Virus record (IMG/VR): IMGVR_UViG_3300046559_000164
Span: 1 to 21,612 of that record
DNA from: a virus
Direction: 5' to 3' (one strand)
Length of the DNA stretch: 21,612 nucleotides
Part shown: one piece after another, positions 3,078 to 21,612 of the stretch
Position numbering within the stretch: position 1 is the first letter of the stretch
Layout of the letters: every line of letters starts with the position of its first letter
Position numbers and translations under genes: made by a program
The notes under the pieces: generated by a model
Told to the model about the DNA's origin: nothing
The model's database searches: none
Seen by the model: the letters and a program-made list of their open reading frames with translations, nothing else

Positions 3078-5474
3078 TTATCTCCCAAAAAGTAATGCCA
3101 TTGCGAATGCTTTGCCGATTGTGATACTGCCACCACCGACAGCGGCATCGACGTATGCTGTGGTAGCGATTTTCGTTGAATTATTACTAGCCGCCTGAGT
3201 GGTTGCTGTTACATCACTGGCTAGGGCACATGTCGGCGTATTGTTTGCTGTCAATGTAATAAAGTCTACCCACGCCGCCCCGTCAACATCACGGGCTTGA
3301 AGTATCATCGTGTTACCAGCGCCTGTGCCAGTGCGATGTGTTAATCCATAAATATTTGCCCATCGAACTGTAGCCGTTCCTAGGTCATCTGTATTGTCTG
3401 TATCGGAAAGCAGCGTCGTGTTTATAGCTACAGCTGCTAAGTTTGATAAAGCTGTGTTGGCACCTGAGCCGCCAGCTGCTACCGCTGCATCTGTATAAGC
3501 TGTAGTTGCAATAGTTGTATTGTTCGTTGATGGTGCTTGAGTAACGGCAGTTACTGCTGTCCCTATCGAGCCTGTTGTGAATGTAAATGTAGTAGCAGAC
3601 ATCCCCGAAAGAGCGCCGCCTGTGATAGTTTTTCCGGTGAAAGTTAAGGCTGCTGGTAATGATAAAGTCCAAGTTCTATTTGTCGATAAATCTTGAGCGC
3701 CAGCGCTGCTTGTTATTTCATTTGCAGTGCCTGCAATTGTGATAGTAGTGGCTGGATCTACATAATCAGTCCCAGCCGCAGCAATCGAAACCACGCCAGT
3801 TGCTGTAGTATTTTTCATCAATCCAGTTGTAAGCAAACTCAGGGCTTGTTCTGCTGACAGTCCAGCATTAGGAGTTTGCGTTATATACGTCGCATTCGTG
3901 GGTGCTCCCGAGGCTGCTGAAGCATCCACGTAGGCCGTGGTAGCAATGCGTGTACTATTATCGTTAGCGGCTTGCGTTGTTGCTGTTACAGCACTTGCAA
4001 GCGAACATGTTGGTGTGTTGTTTGCAGTTAAAGTTATGAAGGCTGTAAACGCCGCTCCATCTACATCCCAAGCGCCAATATTTAACGCATCTGCCGCTGT
4101 ATGTCCGGTGCTTAATCCGGCACTATAAATTTGTCTATAACGATGAGTTCCATCACCCGCATCAATTGTGTTATCAGCGCCAGGCAACAGAGATGTATTT
4201 ATTGCAACTGCACTTAAATTATTTAAACTTACATTGGCTTTAAGTGCGCCTAAAGTGTCAGCATAAGCTGTAGTAGAAATCTTAGTTGAGTTGTCATTAG
4301 CGGCTTGGGTTGTGGCCGTAACTGCTGAATTTAAACTAGCAGTAGGCGGATTGTTTGAGGTAATTGTCAAAAAGTCCGTGTATGTAACTGCTGTTGGGTT
4401 ATAGCCCCTAATATTTAGTGTATTAGCTGCTATGCCTCCGCTGTTTAAAGTAAGCGCATAAATATCTTGCCATCTGGCAGTAAGAGTTCCCAAATCATAA
4501 CTGTTATCTGTGTCAGGAGGTAAAGCGCTGTTAATAGAAACGCCAGAAAGATTGTTTAATTCTTTTTTTGCAAAGGTGCTTGGTGAAGCTGTAAATTGTG
4601 AAAACAAGATTGGATCTGTTCCCACAACAGTGACAGTGGCTGATTGCAACCATGAAGTTTGAGCATATAAAGTCCCTTGCGTTACAGGAACTAAATTGCC
4701 GGGTTGAATTTCAACATTTGTATCATAATCTGTAGCTCTTGTGAGCACCCAGTTTACCGCGCCTGAACCCACGGTTGTAAGGGTGTATATACCGTTTTCT
4801 TCTTGCGCTGTTTGGAATGCTACAAGTACTCTATCGTTCAATGCTGGTGATACACCATCTGTGCTAAATGCTGCCATAGCTCCAGTGTTTGTAAGTGTAG
4901 CTCCTACACCCCCAGCTCCATTTGCATATGCAGCCGTTAGATTAGCTGTGGATGTGGCCACTACTGCTGGTTTAACGGTAAGTCCTGCGCTAATCGTGTC
5001 CGCATATTCCTTGGTGACTGCATCTAGCGGTCCTACAGGGTCTCCGCTTAGTTGAAGCAAGCCTGTCATAATGCCACCATTAATGGGCACATAAGGCACA
5101 TGGCCTACGCTACCAAAGAAATATCCTGATGTGGTTGTGTAGGCAATAAAGCATGGCAAGACTGCTTGCGTTCCGCCAGTAGGAATTGAGGATGTTAAAT
5201 CGCCACTACTGCTTGGGCTAAGGTAATAGAGTGTATTTGCTACCAATCCAGATAGGCCGCTAATGAATCCTTCTTGCATTACAAATATGTGATCTACATC
5301 GGCAACACCTGAAACCATTCCCACAACTTGTGCATGAGCTTCGGTATCTGCTTGAGCGGCTATAAAACTTCCCGCCGATAGTCTTACTACCTTTCCCTTT
5401 ACAAGCCCGTGACCAACTTGTAATACTGGATTTGATAAAGAGTTAGTTGCTAATAAACGTGCTGAGTTAGCCAT
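3078..5474 (-). CDS. Long modular tail fibre with three tandem repeats
   Basis: This is a 798-residue fibre. Residues 1-130 are a beta-rich module (GHGLVKGKVVRLSAG ... LVANTLYYLSPSSSG) resembling two modules of the neighbouring 764-residue fibre. Residues 135-300 include AVTKEYADTISAGL, common in phage fibre shafts, and a domain ending DPILFSQFTA. Three paralogous units of about 110 residues begin near 306, 417 and 676. Each starts 'LxNLxxVxIN', continues 'DNxxDxG...R...IY', 'FxTxTxNNxPT' and ends 'TATTQAAxxNSTxIxTTAY'. A divergent copy of the TTAY end lies near 655-665, inside an insert between units 2 and 3. The C-terminus is short (ITIGKAFAMALLFGR) and shows no chaperone-type peptidase domain. 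Its start overlaps the previous stop as TAATG. It likely forms a trimeric fibre or shaft. Confidence 0.85.
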   Translation of the reverse strand: MANSARLLATNSLSNPVLQVGHGLVKGKVVRLSAGSFIAAQADTEAHAQVVGMVSGVADVDHIFVMQEGFISGLSGLVANTLYYLSPSSSGDLTSSIPTGGTQAVLPCFIAYTTTSGYFFGSVGHVPYVPINGGIMTGLLQLSGDPVGPLDAVTKEYADTISAGLTVKPAVVATSTANLTAAYANGAGGVGATLTNTGAMAAFSTDGVSPALNDRVLVAFQTAQEENGIYTLTTVGSGAVNWVLTRATDYDTNVEIQPGNLVPVTQGTLYAQTSWLQSATVTVVGTDPILFSQFTASPSTFAKKELNNLSGVSINSALPPDTDNSYDLGTLTARWQDIYALTLNSGGIAANTLNIRGYNPTAVTYTDFLTITSNNPPTASLNSAVTATTQAANDNSTKISTTAYADTLGALKANVSLNNLSAVAINTSLLPGADNTIDAGDGTHRYRQIYSAGLSTGHTAADALNIGAWDVDGAAFTAFITLTANNTPTCSLASAVTATTQAANDNSTRIATTAYVDASAASGAPTNATYITQTPNAGLSAEQALSLLTTGLMKNTTATGVVSIAAAGTDYVDPATTITIAGTANEITSSAGAQDLSTNRTWTLSLPAALTFTGKTITGGALSGMSATTFTFTTGSIGTAVTAVTQAPSTNNTTIATTAYTDAAVAAGGSGANTALSNLAAVAINTTLLSDTDNTDDLGTATVRWANIYGLTHRTGTGAGNTMILQARDVDGAAWVDFITLTANNTPTCALASDVTATTQAASNNSTKIATTAYVDAAVGGGSITIGKAFAMALLFGR

Positions 5475-17580: not shown

Positions 17581-17760
17581 TCATTTTCTATAGTAAACAA
17601 AAGCTGATTCGGTTTGAAACGTGAGAATAGGTCCTATCACTTCAGGTGATATGGTTTCCAAGACCTTTATCATCGTTTCTACATCTTCAAAAACTTCATA
17701 ATGTACGCCCGTGGTGCCTACATCATTTTTCTTGTGATACAAACAAACATACATACTCAT
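17581..17760 (-). CDS. Small unknown protein between head and tail genes (59 residues)
   Basis: This 59-codon frame lies in the only gap between the head-fibre and tail adaptor genes. The product starts MSMYVCLYHKKNDVGTTGVH and includes YEVFEDVETMIKVLETISPE and a C-terminal FVYYRK. It looks like a compact alpha/beta protein with one acidic amphipathic helix (about residues 23-38). AAGGATGA directly precedes ATG 17760, and the stop TGA feeds into the ribosome site of the next gene six bases downstream, so spacing is that of a real gene. I do not recognise a family. Position between the head genes and the gp11-like adaptor suggests a completion or assembly factor, but nothing in the sequence proves this. 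Confidence 0.7.
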   Translation of the reverse strand: MSMYVCLYHKKNDVGTTGVHYEVFEDVETMIKVLETISPEVIGPILTFQTESAFVYYRK

Positions 17761-17773
17761 TCATCCTTGAATG

Positions 17774-17804
17774 GGGAACCATTCGGAAAAACCGAACAGT
17801 TCCC
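17774..17804 (-). terminator. Strong hairpin after the head-fibre gene (terminator-like, no U-tract)
   Basis: Minus-strand RNA forms a 13-pair stem, GGGAACUGUUCGG / CCGAAUGGUUCCC, closed by a UUUUU loop. Two central pairs are U.G and G.U wobbles; on the plus strand the same positions are C-A mismatches, so only minus-strand RNA forms a continuous stem. It lies eight bases after the head-fibre stop and 13 bases before the 59-codon gene. No U-run follows the stem, so it is not a standard intrinsic terminator. Partial termination, RNase processing or 3'-end protection are possible. Confidence 0.55.
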
Positions 17805-17811
17805 AGTTTCT

Positions 17812-18600
17812 TTATAGTGTTGTAGTCACAGTCGCATACCATATATGCACATCTACGGTTGAGGTTCCCGTGTCGAAAGCGCCGGTCAAGTTGGACATGC
17901 AAATAGACTTATTGACGGTATCCACAGCGCCGCTGCTTGGGCATGCGCCTTGCAACATAAATGTGGAATCTGCTGCCCATGCAATCGCAACTGCAGCTGC
18001 CGCAGTCGCGCTGGCTCCAATTCCAGCCCCATGCACATCGGCGTCATACTGCAATCCGAAAACACCACCATTTGCGAACTGTGCTCCGCCATAATCGATT
18101 TCTAACATCACGCGATCGATAACATGTAATTTATTAGCGCCTGGCGCTGGAAGGATTTCAAATGGTGCGGCATACATGCCATTGAATTGAGCGGCTGTCA
18201 TTGGCACTTTTAGGTATTGAATCGTAGTTACAGCAAGCTTGGAAGTATCGACCGCATTAGCTGCAAGTTTGCCTGTTGTAACGCCCAAATCTGCAAGGGC
18301 TGCCGTATCCACTGCGCCTGCTTGGATTTGACCTGCACCAATACCACCCGCGCCAATCGTTGCAATCGCGCCTATTAATACTTGTGGTGTAACTGCCAAT
18401 ACTTCATAAAATCCAGGGCCATCAGTAGCCTGCACATAGAGATTATCGTTAACGCGCAAAGAAGTCGCAAAGTCATCAAAGTATCCTGCTGCTTCAACCG
18501 CTGCCGCTGCATCTACATCTGTAAAATAACTGTAGAAAGCTGGTGCGTTTGAGTTAGCACCAGAGGAAGTTCTATTTACATTTTCTAATTCAAAAGCCAT
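17812..18600 (-). CDS. Head-fibre or capsid decoration-like protein
   Basis: This 262-residue protein directly follows the major capsid gene. The N-terminus (about residues 20-75) has SYFTDVDAAAAVEAAGYFDD, then LRVNDNLYVQATDGPGFYEV, a small domain I recognise from phage head-associated proteins. The middle (about 80-125) has a repetitive pattern, AGGIGAGQIQAGAVDTAAL and GVTTGKLAANAVDTSKLAV, of the type that makes trimeric beta-helical stalks. The C-terminal 130 residues are Gly/Ala-rich and beta-strand-like (IDRVMLEIDYGG, GVFGLQYDADVHG, VDVHIWYATV). This plan of base, stalk and head suggests a trimeric fibre on the capsid; the function is inferred from position and repeats. AGGAG lies nine bases before ATG 18600. 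A hairpin follows the stop. Confidence 0.7.
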   Translation of the reverse strand: MAFELENVNRTSSGANSNAPAFYSYFTDVDAAAAVEAAGYFDDFATSLRVNDNLYVQATDGPGFYEVLAVTPQVLIGAIATIGAGGIGAGQIQAGAVDTAALADLGVTTGKLAANAVDTSKLAVTTIQYLKVPMTAAQFNGMYAAPFEILPAPGANKLHVIDRVMLEIDYGGAQFANGGVFGLQYDADVHGAGIGASATAAAAVAIAWAADSTFMLQGACPSSGAVDTVNKSICMSNLTGAFDTGTSTVDVHIWYATVTTTL

Positions 18601-18628: not shown

Positions 18629-19468
18629 TTACGCAGTGATATCAATATGGATTTCTACGATACCTGTCGCATCGACTGCTACTGATTGCGCACTGAATAG
18701 TGAGTTCACAAGCCAGGAGGTTTTTTGTGGCACATAGTTGATTTCGGTGCGTTTGTCGATTCCTACGCCTATACCCATTGCTTGTTTAGCATACATAAAG
18801 CAAGTTCTATCGTTGCCTGCTAGTGGTAAGCCGCCTTCTAAGTTATCTGGGATGACGATGAACGTAACTCCCATGATCGAGAGTTTGCTAAAGCCGTCTT
18901 CAGTCAAAGGTTTACGGTCAACGAAGAACGCATTGGTTAGCTGTGCTTGTTGCAGGAGTTGTTCTTCTGCGAACGCATCGATAACGCAATAGATGTCTTT
19001 CGTAGCCGCTTGTCTGCGAAGGTCACGGAAGGCTGAGAGAAAGGTTACATAGTTGAAGCCTGTGCCTACAACGAATGGGATTACATTAGCTGTACCAGAG
19101 GCCGCTAAAGCGTCAATAATCATCTGGTCGCAACGTCGACCAATGGCCATACCTGAGCACTTAACTAGCTCAAATCTGTCATCCCAATTGATCTTTTGTT
19201 GCGCGAAAATATCGGTGTATTCAGGTGCAACCCAATCTTCTAAGTTGGCTGAGACTGGTGTGTACTGAACATTCATAGGAACTACATCAGACTGGAAAGG
19301 CTTTTGATTTGCCATTCCTTTGCCCATGACGGGGAACACTACTGTTTTACCAACAACGTTGGATTTGTAGCGTACTGATTCTTTTAATTGAAAACCCTCG
19401 GACTGGAATACTTGATGTACGTCCGATTCAAACTGGGTAATAAACACATTAGGTAAATTGACAGACAT
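18629..19468 (-). CDS. Major capsid protein (HK97 fold, not T7-type)
   Basis: This 279-residue protein is the shell subunit. I recognise the podophage capsid family (Phage_capsid_2-like) from the N-terminal FITQFESDVHQVFQSEGFQL, FPVMGKGMANQKPF, the central QKINWDDRFELVKCSGMAIG-R-R-CDQMIIDAL stretch, FRDLRRQAATKDIYCVIDAF, and the C-terminal VGIDKRTEINYVPQKTSWLV. It is shorter than most relatives (roughly 320-350 residues) but the conserved blocks appear in order. There is no N-terminal delta domain; a separate scaffold gene lies just upstream. GAGGTG (19474-19479) sits five bases before ATG 19468, an excellent ribosome site. The gene has its own promoter (19683-19711) and a structured leader of about 208 bases, fitting the need for hundreds of copies. 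Confidence 0.9.
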   Translation of the reverse strand: MSVNLPNVFITQFESDVHQVFQSEGFQLKESVRYKSNVVGKTVVFPVMGKGMANQKPFQSDVVPMNVQYTPVSANLEDWVAPEYTDIFAQQKINWDDRFELVKCSGMAIGRRCDQMIIDALAASGTANVIPFVVGTGFNYVTFLSAFRDLRRQAATKDIYCVIDAFAEEQLLQQAQLTNAFFVDRKPLTEDGFSKLSIMGVTFIVIPDNLEGGLPLAGNDRTCFMYAKQAMGIGVGIDKRTEINYVPQKTSWLVNSLFSAQSVAVDATGIVEIHIDITA

Positions 19469-19676
19469 GGTTGCACCTCGGCAAAGATAATTTGCAATAA
19501 AAAACTACGGTTCTTTATTGGGTATCCTGCTGAGTCCATGCGGGGCGCTTACGCGGTATCCCAGACCAATCAGGGCCAATGGGTTTACATCAGCCTAGGT
19601 GTCCTTTCGGGCTAGGTGCCAAAATGCCCTCGTGTCGTGCGAGTGTCGAATCCGCTTTACCCGTGAGCATTCCTGC
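19469..19676 (-). promoter_or_regulatory. Structured leader RNA of the major capsid gene
   Basis: About 208 bases lie between the predicted start (near 19676) and the capsid ATG, with no supported reading frame, whereas most other junctions in the window have gaps of under ten bases. Minus-strand RNA can form several hairpins. CCUAG/CUAGG pair at 19612-19616 and 19594-19598. At 19560-19583, CCCA/UGGG enclose GGCC/GGUC with a two-base bulge. An 11-pair stem lies at 19495-19520. AAUGCUC (near 19670) can pair with GGGCAUU, bringing the 5' part together. The local GC content is higher than in flanking genes. I do not recognise a named RNA family; a role in message stability or translation control is inference. 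Confidence 0.5.
19495..19520 (-). promoter_or_regulatory. 11-pair hairpin upstream of the capsid ribosome site
   Basis: CAAUAAAGAAC and GUUUUUUAUUG pair over 11 positions with one G.U wobble and a CGUA tetraloop. The stem ends 15 bases before the GAGGTG ribosome site. On the plus strand the wobble becomes a C-A mismatch, so the stem is complete only in minus-strand RNA. It may protect the message or keep the ribosome site exposed. Confidence 0.5.
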
Positions 19677-19682
19677 AATTTT

Positions 19683-19711
19683 AATATACTCTGACTAAAT
19701 CAATCTGACAA
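19683..19711 (-). promoter_or_regulatory. Sigma70-type promoter of the major capsid transcript
   Basis: The minus strand has TTGTCA (19706-19711, five of six -35 bases), a 17-base spacer and TATATT (19683-19688, five of six -10 bases). The -35 box begins on the base directly after the scaffold stop codon. Start of transcription is expected near 19676. Its position before the most abundant virion protein supports the call. Confidence 0.65.
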
Positions 19712-20530
19712 CTACCCTCGCATTGATTGCTCTCGGTTGTCAGCTTCCTCCCAACGACGGGCGATTTCAGAGCGATAGGCTTCATCATTCTGGTATTGTT
19801 TCCAGTTTTTGTTTTTCTCGGCTTCTATTGCTTTGACTGTTTCATAACTATGTCGGGATTCAAACTGATTTGCTGTAGGGGCAACAGAGTTTGCTCTCCC
19901 AGCCCTTATCATATCGAGGGCTTTGATATCCTTGCCGGACAACGACCATTCTTTGATTGATTCCTGCACTTCGGGGCTGAAGTTCTTTGCCCAATTCGCT
20001 ACACGGTCTACTACTTCCTTACTACCAGCCTCTCGCACGATTTCTTCTTGCGATTTAGCCGCCATCGAGTTACCTATTTCGGCAAACTTAGATGCCATCT
20101 TTTCAAAACCTTGTTGATCTAAATTCATTTCCTTGAAAGTATCCGTAAACCCCTGAAGTATGGGCGATGCTTTGTCGATACCCTCCGGAAGGTTGTCAAA
20201 GGAATAAGCTTCTGGCGCTCCTTTGAATGCCCCAAACCTTTTAAGCGCCTCTGGAAGCGCTCTGGCCTGCTCTGCTACGGATTTGTACTTCTCAAGTAAG
20301 TATTCGGGTTTATCGCCTTCGCCTTTAATACCATCAGCCCACATCCAAGCGGGTGACTCTGAAGTAAGGGTAGCTTCAGTGGCGACTTCAGTTGGGGTTG
20401 TTTTAACTTCAGTTGTGGTTGTAACCGCTGAAGCTGCTTCTTCTTTAGGCGCAAACGCCCCCAATTCTGACTTACTGAAATTGCTGGTCTCTGGTCCTCC
20501 GACCACTTCTATATCTACTGATTCTGACAT
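19712..20530 (-). CDS. Capsid scaffolding protein
   Basis: This 272-residue protein lies directly before the capsid gene, the usual place of the scaffold. Residues 1-65 are acidic and Thr/Glu/Ala-rich, probably disordered (SAVTTTTEVKTTPTEVA). Residues about 66-145 hold the conserved-looking block: PAWMWADGIKGEG, PEYLLEKYKSVAEQARALPE, FKGAPEAYSFDNLPEG and MNLDQQGFEKMASKFAEIG. A helical C-terminal half follows, ending in KNWKQYQNDEAYRSEIARRW and EADNREQSMRG. The order 'W..., KYKS, P.AY, helix-turn-helix at the end' is typical of podophage scaffolds, which guide shell assembly and then leave. AAGGAG lies ten bases before ATG 20530, with only four bases between it and the previous stop. Confidence 0.85.
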   Translation of the reverse strand: MSESVDIEVVGGPETSNFSKSELGAFAPKEEAASAVTTTTEVKTTPTEVATEATLTSESPAWMWADGIKGEGDKPEYLLEKYKSVAEQARALPEALKRFGAFKGAPEAYSFDNLPEGIDKASPILQGFTDTFKEMNLDQQGFEKMASKFAEIGNSMAAKSQEEIVREAGSKEVVDRVANWAKNFSPEVQESIKEWSLSGKDIKALDMIRAGRANSVAPTANQFESRHSYETVKAIEAEKNKNWKQYQNDEAYRSEIARRWEEADNREQSMRG

Positions 20531-20534
20531 AGGC

Positions 20535-20849
20535 TTACTTCTCCTTGCTTCCTAGCAGTTGCGCTGACATATAGCGATTAAATTCATTTTCTTCCTTGGC
20601 GAACATCTCAATAGCCCTTAATAAAGAGTTTTGCCCCTCCCTGAATCGACAATAGGCTGCTGGGTATTCCGGGCTGGCGACTGGGTTCTTGAGCATGTAA
20701 TAAACTTTCATGGCTTCTAACCATTCCTTGCCAGCTTTTCCGCTTAATAGCTTAAGTGTCAATTCCCGTAGATTCTTAATATCTTTGGGTATTAGCTGCT
20801 TCATTTGCTCGGCTGTTAACTCAGGCTGCTTGTTGCTGGGTCCCTGCAT
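20535..20849 (-). CDS. Bbp19-like small head-module protein
   Basis: This 104-residue protein sits between portal and scaffold, the same place as the Bbp19-type proteins of BPP-1-like podophages. The block LTLKLLSGKAGKEWLEAMKV, followed by AAYCRFREGQNSLLRAIEMF, matches that family plan: a short helix ending in 'GkeWLeal', a loop, then 'FxEGxxSLxxxI'. The protein is small, helical and without membrane segments. Its role is unknown; it is thought to belong to head assembly. AAGGAG with a nine-base spacer precedes ATG 20849. The gene overlaps the portal 3' end by 29 bases, in a different frame, which is more overlap than at other junctions here. Confidence 0.75.
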   Translation of the reverse strand: MQGPSNKQPELTAEQMKQLIPKDIKNLRELTLKLLSGKAGKEWLEAMKVYYMLKNPVASPEYPAAYCRFREGQNSLLRAIEMFAKEENEFNRYMSAQLLGSKEK

Positions 20850-21612
20850 TTTTCATTGCTCCTTGCTTTTGTTCCATTTCCATTTGTTGCTTTTGTTGTT
20901 GCTGCGCTTGTTTTTCAAGTTCCGCCATTATCTTTTTTATTTCCACTTCTGAACGAATGAGAGGCATATATACATTTAGATTCTCACCAAAGAACTTGGG
21001 TAGCATTGTAACGTTGATAGGTATGAGCGCTTTCTCTGGGCCAACGATTGCCGCCATATGTTGGAAGAAAAGCATAAATTGATTAACATCAAGCTGACCT
21101 TTGCCAAGGCTTAGCGGTGTTGTGAACTTCACATCTACAACTTTTCCGTTTACCTCAAACGGTGCAATCAATCCTTTCTTTTTCAGAATCCAAAGTATGC
21201 GCTTGATCAATGGGAAAAATAGTTCTCTTTGAAGTCTAGCAAATGAAGCTGCCGCATCTTCTACCATTTCATTTTGACGGATAGCAACCTCAGTCGCTGT
21301 AAGTTCTGGCGCGTCTTCAATCGGTCCTAGACTTGTGTTAAACATCAGCTTATCAATTTGAGCCCTCAAATCGTTAAGCACAATAGCACCAAAACCCACA
21401 TCACCTGCCTTGGGTAATGGCACGATAGGAAGCTGACCGCCTGCCGCAATAGGATTGACGGGAATGATGGTGTTTGCAGCTAGCTTAAAGGTGTATGGAT
21501 TGAAAAGGCCATCGCTGAACCCCAGGTAAATAGGCTTCGCCATGAGGTCGGCTGCCATGATTTCATCTTCCATAACCTTATTGATAGTGGCTGCCGATGG
21601 GAATGCATCAAG
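20821..21612 (-). CDS. Portal (head-to-tail connector) protein, C-terminal part
   Basis: The frame is open through the right edge, so only the last 263 residues are visible. Twelve-fold rings of this family sit at the capsid vertex through which DNA enters and leaves. Visible features: GGQLPIVPLPKAGDVGFGAI, an acidic segment GPIEDAPELTATEVAIRQNEM, the helix VEDAAASFARLQRELFFPLIK, and INVTMLPKFFGENLNVYMPL. 'TATEVxxRxxEM' followed by 'LxxELxxPLIxR' is a hallmark of podophage head-tail connectors (Head-tail_con family). The C-terminus is a Gln-rich coiled tail, QAQQQQKQQMEMEQKQ, probably flexible or barrel-like. The apparent internal ATG at 21573 is not the true start. It overlaps the next gene by 29 bases. 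Confidence 0.9.
   Translation of the reverse strand, partial: LDAFPSAATINKVMEDEIMAADLMAKPIYLGFSDGLFNPYTFKLAANTIIPVNPIAAGGQLPIVPLPKAGDVGFGAIVLNDLRAQIDKLMFNTSLGPIEDAPELTATEVAIRQNEMVEDAAASFARLQRELFFPLIKRILWILKKKGLIAPFEVNGKVVDVKFTTPLSLGKGQLDVNQFMLFFQHMAAIVGPEKALIPINVTMLPKFFGENLNVYMPLIRSEVEIKKIMAELEKQAQQQQKQQMEMEQKQGAMKNAGTQQQAA

Follow-up and report, generated by a model that had tools for sequence, protein, structure and literature searches.

A putative regulatory leader RNA with a repeated, inverted internal-loop module ahead of the PF19821-type major capsid gene of aquatic phages

Gene order and promoter at the capsid gene

The window analysed here is the complete IMG/VR record of 21,612 bases, which is itself probably a fragment. 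Its structural genes lie on the minus strand and encode, in this order, a portal-like connector, a 104-aa protein, a scaffold-like protein and, after a gap of 243 nt (19469-19711), the major capsid protein (Table 1). The gene order of Methylophilales phage MEP301 is the same. The gap extends from the end of the scaffold-like ORF at 19712 to the capsid ATG at 19468, and the leader that it holds is therefore located between the scaffold and PF19821 capsid genes on the same strand as both. A coding role was rejected because ORFs that overlap the interval are at most 51 aa long. In a quick capsid tree with long branches and unsure placement, the window's capsid forms a long separate branch.

Table 1. 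Features around the capsid leader of the window (all positions refer to the window).
Feature	Position	Strand	Remarks
Portal-like connector	20821-21612	-	
Capsid assembly/scaffold-like protein, upstream of leader	19712-20530	-	phrog_458; gene order as in MEP301
Sigma70-like promoter TTGTCA-17-TATATT	19683-19711	-	10/12 consensus match; placement shared with relatives
Capsid leader RNA, ~208 nt	19469-19676	-	Predicted start (inferred) to base before ATG; gap conserved in relatives
Anti-Shine-Dalgarno strand GCAUUUUGGCA, 5' half of 11-pair stem	19617-19627	-	MFE structure
Module copy M1: CCUAG-[C]-CC CGAAA GG-[ACAC]-CUAGG	19594-19616	-	Contiguous strand first, 4-nt loop strand second; held-out model R3
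Module copy M2: UGGG-[AUAC]-CGC GUAA GCG-[C]-CCCG	19541-19563	-	Inverted orientation
Putative module copy M3: AUUGG-[C]-CC ... GG-[AUAC]-CCAAU	19517-19580	-	Long-range, encloses M2; read by positional homology
Shine-Dalgarno region UGCCGAGGUGC, 3' half of 11-pair stem	19473-19483	-	GAGG at 19476-19479; MFE structure
Major capsid protein	18629-19468	-	PF19821 Phage_capsid_2 (E=2e-55) / phrog_3437

A first-pass annotation made from the window alone had pointed to the mostly short junctions in the rest of this late block, which is broadly true; wider ones are the 28 nt after the capsid gene and the 51 nt before a 59-aa ORF. This ORF (17581-17760, minus strand) is under the usual length cut-off, lies between tail-fibre-like and tail tubular protein A-like genes and takes up most of the apparent gap at this place. 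Just past the gene ending at 17812, the minus strand can form a strong hairpin, GGGAACUGUUCGG-UUUU-CCGAAUGGUUCCC (17774-17804), without a U-run behind it.

The promoter-like sequence that the annotation had placed right after the scaffold stop is present there, with a -35 element (TTGTCA, 19711-19706) and a -10 element (TATATT, 19688-19683) separated by a 17-nt spacer, and is the top match of the region to the sigma70 consensus (10 of 12 positions). The non-coding leader of about 208 nt proposed downstream of it agrees with the predicted transcription start near 19676. Promoter-like sites in the window region occur at chance level (6 versus 7.3 in shuffles) and the folding energy of the leader is no better than that of shuffled sequences (z -0.96), so that the case from the window by itself would be weak; it is comparative evidence that carries it.

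Among relatives, sigma70-like promoters matching the consensus at 10 or more of 12 positions were found in 24 of 92 leaders (2.8 in shuffles, maximum 7), mostly with the -10 element 110-170 nt upstream of the capsid ATG, and an intrinsic terminator follows the scaffold stop in 29 of 92. In cluster L058, the promoter starts directly behind the scaffold stop like in the window. The separate capsid promoter suggested earlier thus gains support from these relatives, and the lack of an annotated RNA polymerase in MEP301 fits a promoter of the host type. A subgroup of relatives (L018 at about 4476-4870, also L006, L009, L010, L019-L021 and L233) carries, downstream of the scaffold gene and ahead of the capsid promoter, about 400 nt of conserved GC-rich sequence, which is probably a non-coding RNA and has no match in Rfam.

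A repeated internal-loop module in capsid leaders

Relatives of the capsid gene were collected from three sources (viral contigs, GTDB genomes and phage records). This resulted in 264 loci with a usable start. The gap could be measured at 241 of them, with a median of 180 nt, and the leaders were grouped into 103 clusters. Across these clusters, the non-coding gap between scaffold and capsid genes is kept. The leaders share a module composed of a 4x1 internal loop, [A/C]YA[A/C] or C[A/C/U]YA facing a single C, between two covarying helices. The 4-nt strand mostly reads AYAM or CNYA, and the flanking helices vary freely in sequence. The module occurs in two inverted orientations, one in hairpin E1 (loop strand first), which mostly ends 75-115 nt before the ATG, and one in hairpin E2 (loop strand second), which mostly ends 35-60 nt before it.

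With consensus thresholds that were set after the relatives had been seen, E1 and E2 consensus hairpins are found together in 56 of 103 leaders, compared to 2.3 in shuffles (maximum 7). We also asked for nothing but the 4x1 geometry at the two positions where the hairpins are expected. A C then faced the 4-nt strand in 61/81 and 56/81 hairpins, compared to about 12.7 in shuffles, and this strand matched the consensus 56 and 50 times, compared to 3-4. Because the module comes close to being self-complementary in that scan, the reverse-complement strand did not serve as a control. Two other descriptions of the element were discarded: A bulge of 3-4 nt without an opposing base failed in a strict scan for the first hairpin, for which the 4x1 module was used instead, and CsrA sites were rejected because, as read from the sequences, many copies have no GGA.

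The window has both orientations of the module, and the scores of M1 and M2 were equalled by 1 of 3000 shuffles. A covariance model, R3, that had been built without the window sequence matches M1 at 19593-19617 on the minus strand (21.9 bits, E=4.2e-4) as the only significant match in the window, with the next at E=0.16. The third candidate, M3, lies at the place of the relatives' second hairpin with its end 48 nt before the ATG, so that it is plausible as a module copy by position; in the fold model it comes at a cost of about 7 kcal/mol, and it is weaker than M1 and M2. The four-hairpin architecture of R2, a covariance model of the MEP301 subgroup, has no significant match to the window leader. 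Judged by these sequence comparisons, we assign the window leader to the PF19821-linked family of capsid leader RNAs.

Covariation and specificity

The structured leader proposed from the window is borne out in relatives, where both covariation and conserved pairing were looked for and found. Across 11 aligned hairpins, the outer helix of E2 shows a covariation of 0.611 compared to 0.157 in shuffles and at most 0.09 when slid, with changes on both sides in 6 of 6 pairs, figures that lean towards structure given that these hairpins had been selected by a scan requiring pairing. This bias does not apply to 25 MEP301-type leaders aligned simply with MAFFT, in which RNAalifold found four hairpins unaided. 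A 23-pair structure on this alignment is paired in 88.8% of cells and has a covariation of 0.406 (0.145 in shuffles, reached by 0/500), which drops to at most 0.072 when the structure is slid along the alignment. On the divergent L017-type alignment RNAalifold found almost nothing because these sequences do not align, and this group was instead tested by permutation (see below). MEP301-type leaders (L082 2861-2975, alignment A5) contain further conserved hairpins between E1 and E2, and one of these, GGCU..CGUAA..AGCAAGC, is nearly invariant in its loop and 3' flank.

The element is specific to its place in the genome. Strict E2 matches numbered 36 in 20.6 kb of leader sequence versus 2 in 602 kb of other DNA from the same loci, and all 40 matches of R2 over 635 kb, searched on both strands, fell into capsid leaders, including leaders beyond the seed of the model in Hyphomicrobiales, Actinomycetes and Pelagibius contigs. 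Matches were found in 5 of 14 records, with one per matching record. Among the matches listed from a scan of 2.9 million viral contigs with an RNA-only pattern of the MEP301 group, about 116 of 120 lie at a PF19821-type capsid gene, and the others are mostly cut by the contig end. Another scan of viral contigs with a short pattern was left unused, since only 3 contigs of its 70 matches were in the capsid-leader set and the rest were judged to be mostly chance.

The first-pass annotation had been unable to match the leader to a known RNA family, and a search of Rfam 15 (4227 families) came out likewise: The window, its leader and 18 related loci have no match at the gathering threshold, and permissive thresholds gave only chance snoRNA matches (snoTBR5, 19.1 bits versus a threshold of 44, which we took as chance). 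Comparison of the leader DNA with phage and plasmid records returned nothing of use, and no earlier description of the leader was found in open PubMed Central papers.

Competing helices at the Shine-Dalgarno sequence

In one large lineage, the leader strands follow the order A1-B1-B2-A2-SD, where A1 and B1 are the 5' and 3' strands of E1, A2 is the 3' strand of E2 and SD is the Shine-Dalgarno sequence. A1 pairs with the SD of its own leader at a mean of -10.5 kcal/mol versus -7.5 kcal/mol, which was reached by 0 of 5000 permutations, a value that is not an exact probability because the clusters are related and not independent. An unbiased scan for anti-SD sequences gave the same count (0/5000) and centred on A1. 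Examples are AUACCUCUUUUAAAG with CUUUUAAAGAGGUAU in L044 and CCUGAAU with AUUCAGG in L266. For leaders outside the MEP301 group, the z score is -9.8 for A1 with SD (compared to the SDs of other leaders) and -6.1 for B1 with A2. This complementarity supports the earlier suggestion that the leader may control translation, in the lineage in which it was found.

The pairings define two mutually exclusive states of the kind that a translational switch would have. With A1:B1 and B2:A2 paired, both module hairpins would form and leave the SD free, while pairing of B1:A2 and A1:SD would cover the start site, and for many non-MEP301 leaders the covered state is predicted to be 10-19 kcal/mol more stable. 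When the modules were forced to form in the fold model, whose energies take no account of proteins or tertiary contacts, the SD opened by over 0.2 in just 7 out of 38 leaders, so that this model backs the mechanism only in part. Leaders of the MEP301-type group show A1:SD and B1:A2 pairing no better than that of permuted pairs (z -1.6 and -0.7), which argues that the module is broader than the switch and that the SD switch is not universal.

For the window, the predicted MFE structure contains the 11-pair stem covering the SD motif GAGG (Table 1) that had been described as complete only in minus-strand RNA, which it is because it includes G-U pairs. This stem is not individually better than stems with swapped SD regions (percentile 0.168). 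It encloses the module hairpins and is compatible with them, so that module formation alone would not open the start site, which is predicted to be closed by default.

Interpretation and alternatives

We regard it as fairly likely that the capsid gene has a transcription unit of its own, with promoter and 5' leader contained in the interval, and that this leader acts in cis as a regulatory RNA, most likely on the translation of the capsid. By sequence comparison, the leaders constitute a conserved RNA family with the repeated 4x1 module in two opposite orientations as its core, and they probably control the timing and amount of capsid made in many aquatic phages with this capsid type. Formation or binding of the twin modules would shift the mRNA to its translatable state, and capsid synthesis would be held back until a partner is present, probably a phage or host protein recognizing the twin loops; alternatively, a fold made during transcription might give a timed pulse. 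More tentatively, and with a little less than even confidence, we propose that these leaders represent a regulatory RNA class devoted to a phage capsid gene, in which a sensor of two inverted modules would open or close the capsid start by strand exchange for a phage or host partner.

In a special case of this regulatory leader, with the partner named, the capsid or scaffold protein would use the twin modules as its operator, binding its own leader and adjusting capsid synthesis to assembly. Other structural and replication genes of phages are known to be under autogenous control. One element per genome in the searched records, in every case at the capsid gene, with none elsewhere, would suit such control, as would two inverted module copies for a dimeric or multimeric protein. 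However, stabilization of the modules in the switch lineage would open the start site, opposite to simple repression, and we consider this possibility rather unlikely.

The other alternatives are weaker. Control of stability had been named as another option in the first-pass annotation. If the hairpins only protected the 5' end or marked an RNase site, an abundant and stable capsid mRNA would result, which would suit hairpins at the start of the transcript of a gene whose expression is presumably high, but plain stability needs neither conserved internal-loop nucleotides nor inverted copies nor competing helices, which makes this explanation improbable. We are equally if not more skeptical of a metabolite riboswitch with 4x1 loops binding a small molecule that reports the host or infection state. 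Conserved loop nucleotides between covarying helices together with competing SD pairing are the usual anatomy of translational riboswitches, but the leader is tied to a single gene and not to a pathway, and no Rfam riboswitch matches it. Quite doubtful is an action on RNA polymerase by which terminators in the long downstream structural operon would be ignored, similar to the put RNA of phage HK022; this operon and the position of the first hairpin close behind the predicted start in many relatives would fit, yet neither the complementarity of A1 to its own SD nor the near-constant spacing between the second hairpin and the ATG would be explained. Chance hairpins in an ordinary intergenic gap would agree with the ordinary fold energy and chance-level promoter sites of the window but are contradicted by covariation, specificity and the held-out R3 match to the window, so that we dismiss them as very improbable.

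The proposed regulatory leader makes clear predictions on competing helices, nucleotides contacted by the partner and mutations rescued by compensating changes, and the short RNA module both marks the family and predicts the capsid gene. The timing and dosing of capsid synthesis are often ascribed to promoter strength only; if true, our interpretation would reveal how host transcription is used by some podoviruses to time or dose it.

Comparison with known systems

Several known systems resemble parts of this arrangement. Like the capsid genes studied here, T7 gene 10, which encodes the major capsid protein, has its own promoter and leader; the T7 promoter is one for the phage polymerase, whereas ours is sigma70-like. 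Autogenous translational operators such as those of the R17/MS2 coat protein, T4 gp32 and the P22 scaffold also place a structured RNA beside the start of a phage gene whose dosage has to be tight; the leaders described here differ by two inverted modules and by their promoter-proximal position at the capsid gene of podoviruses. The put RNA of HK022 consists of two hairpins just after a promoter and makes polymerase ignore terminators. It may resemble the capsid leader in its two hairpins near a phage promoter, and the capsid leader differs from it in that its end keeps a fixed distance from one start codon and in its pairing with the SD in one lineage. Translational riboswitches that sequester the SD have in common with it the 5' leader, covarying helices with conserved internal-loop nucleotides in between and, in one lineage, the competing anti-SD strand, but the capsid leader occurs only at a phage capsid gene, has no Rfam match and contains the same 4x1 module twice in inverted form. 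Finally, marine phage Melnitz carries a regulatory RNA as well, a glutamine riboswitch that belongs to a known class of Rfam and is linked to a tmRNA gene (PMC9004378), whereas capsid leaders match no Rfam family. It seems rare for a regulatory RNA to be tied to a single structural gene of phages and to be conserved over such distant relatives, and no comparable one was found in Rfam or the searched open PubMed Central literature.

Occurrence in cultured phages

The element is present in the cultured phages MEP301 and CKB-S2. It is absent from vibriophages 416E50-1, PG9A-2 and 1.138.O and from Pelagibacter phage Hodr despite their related capsid genes; the cultured vibriophages and Hodr (L466, L467, L468 and L469) have a gap of 39-69 nt without the element, which was either lost or never present. 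Another record among the relatives, "Dunaliella viridis virus SI2" (NC_023841, L083), encodes a PF19821-type capsid together with phage tail genes. It is a tailed phage, and its algal host entry is thus probably wrong.
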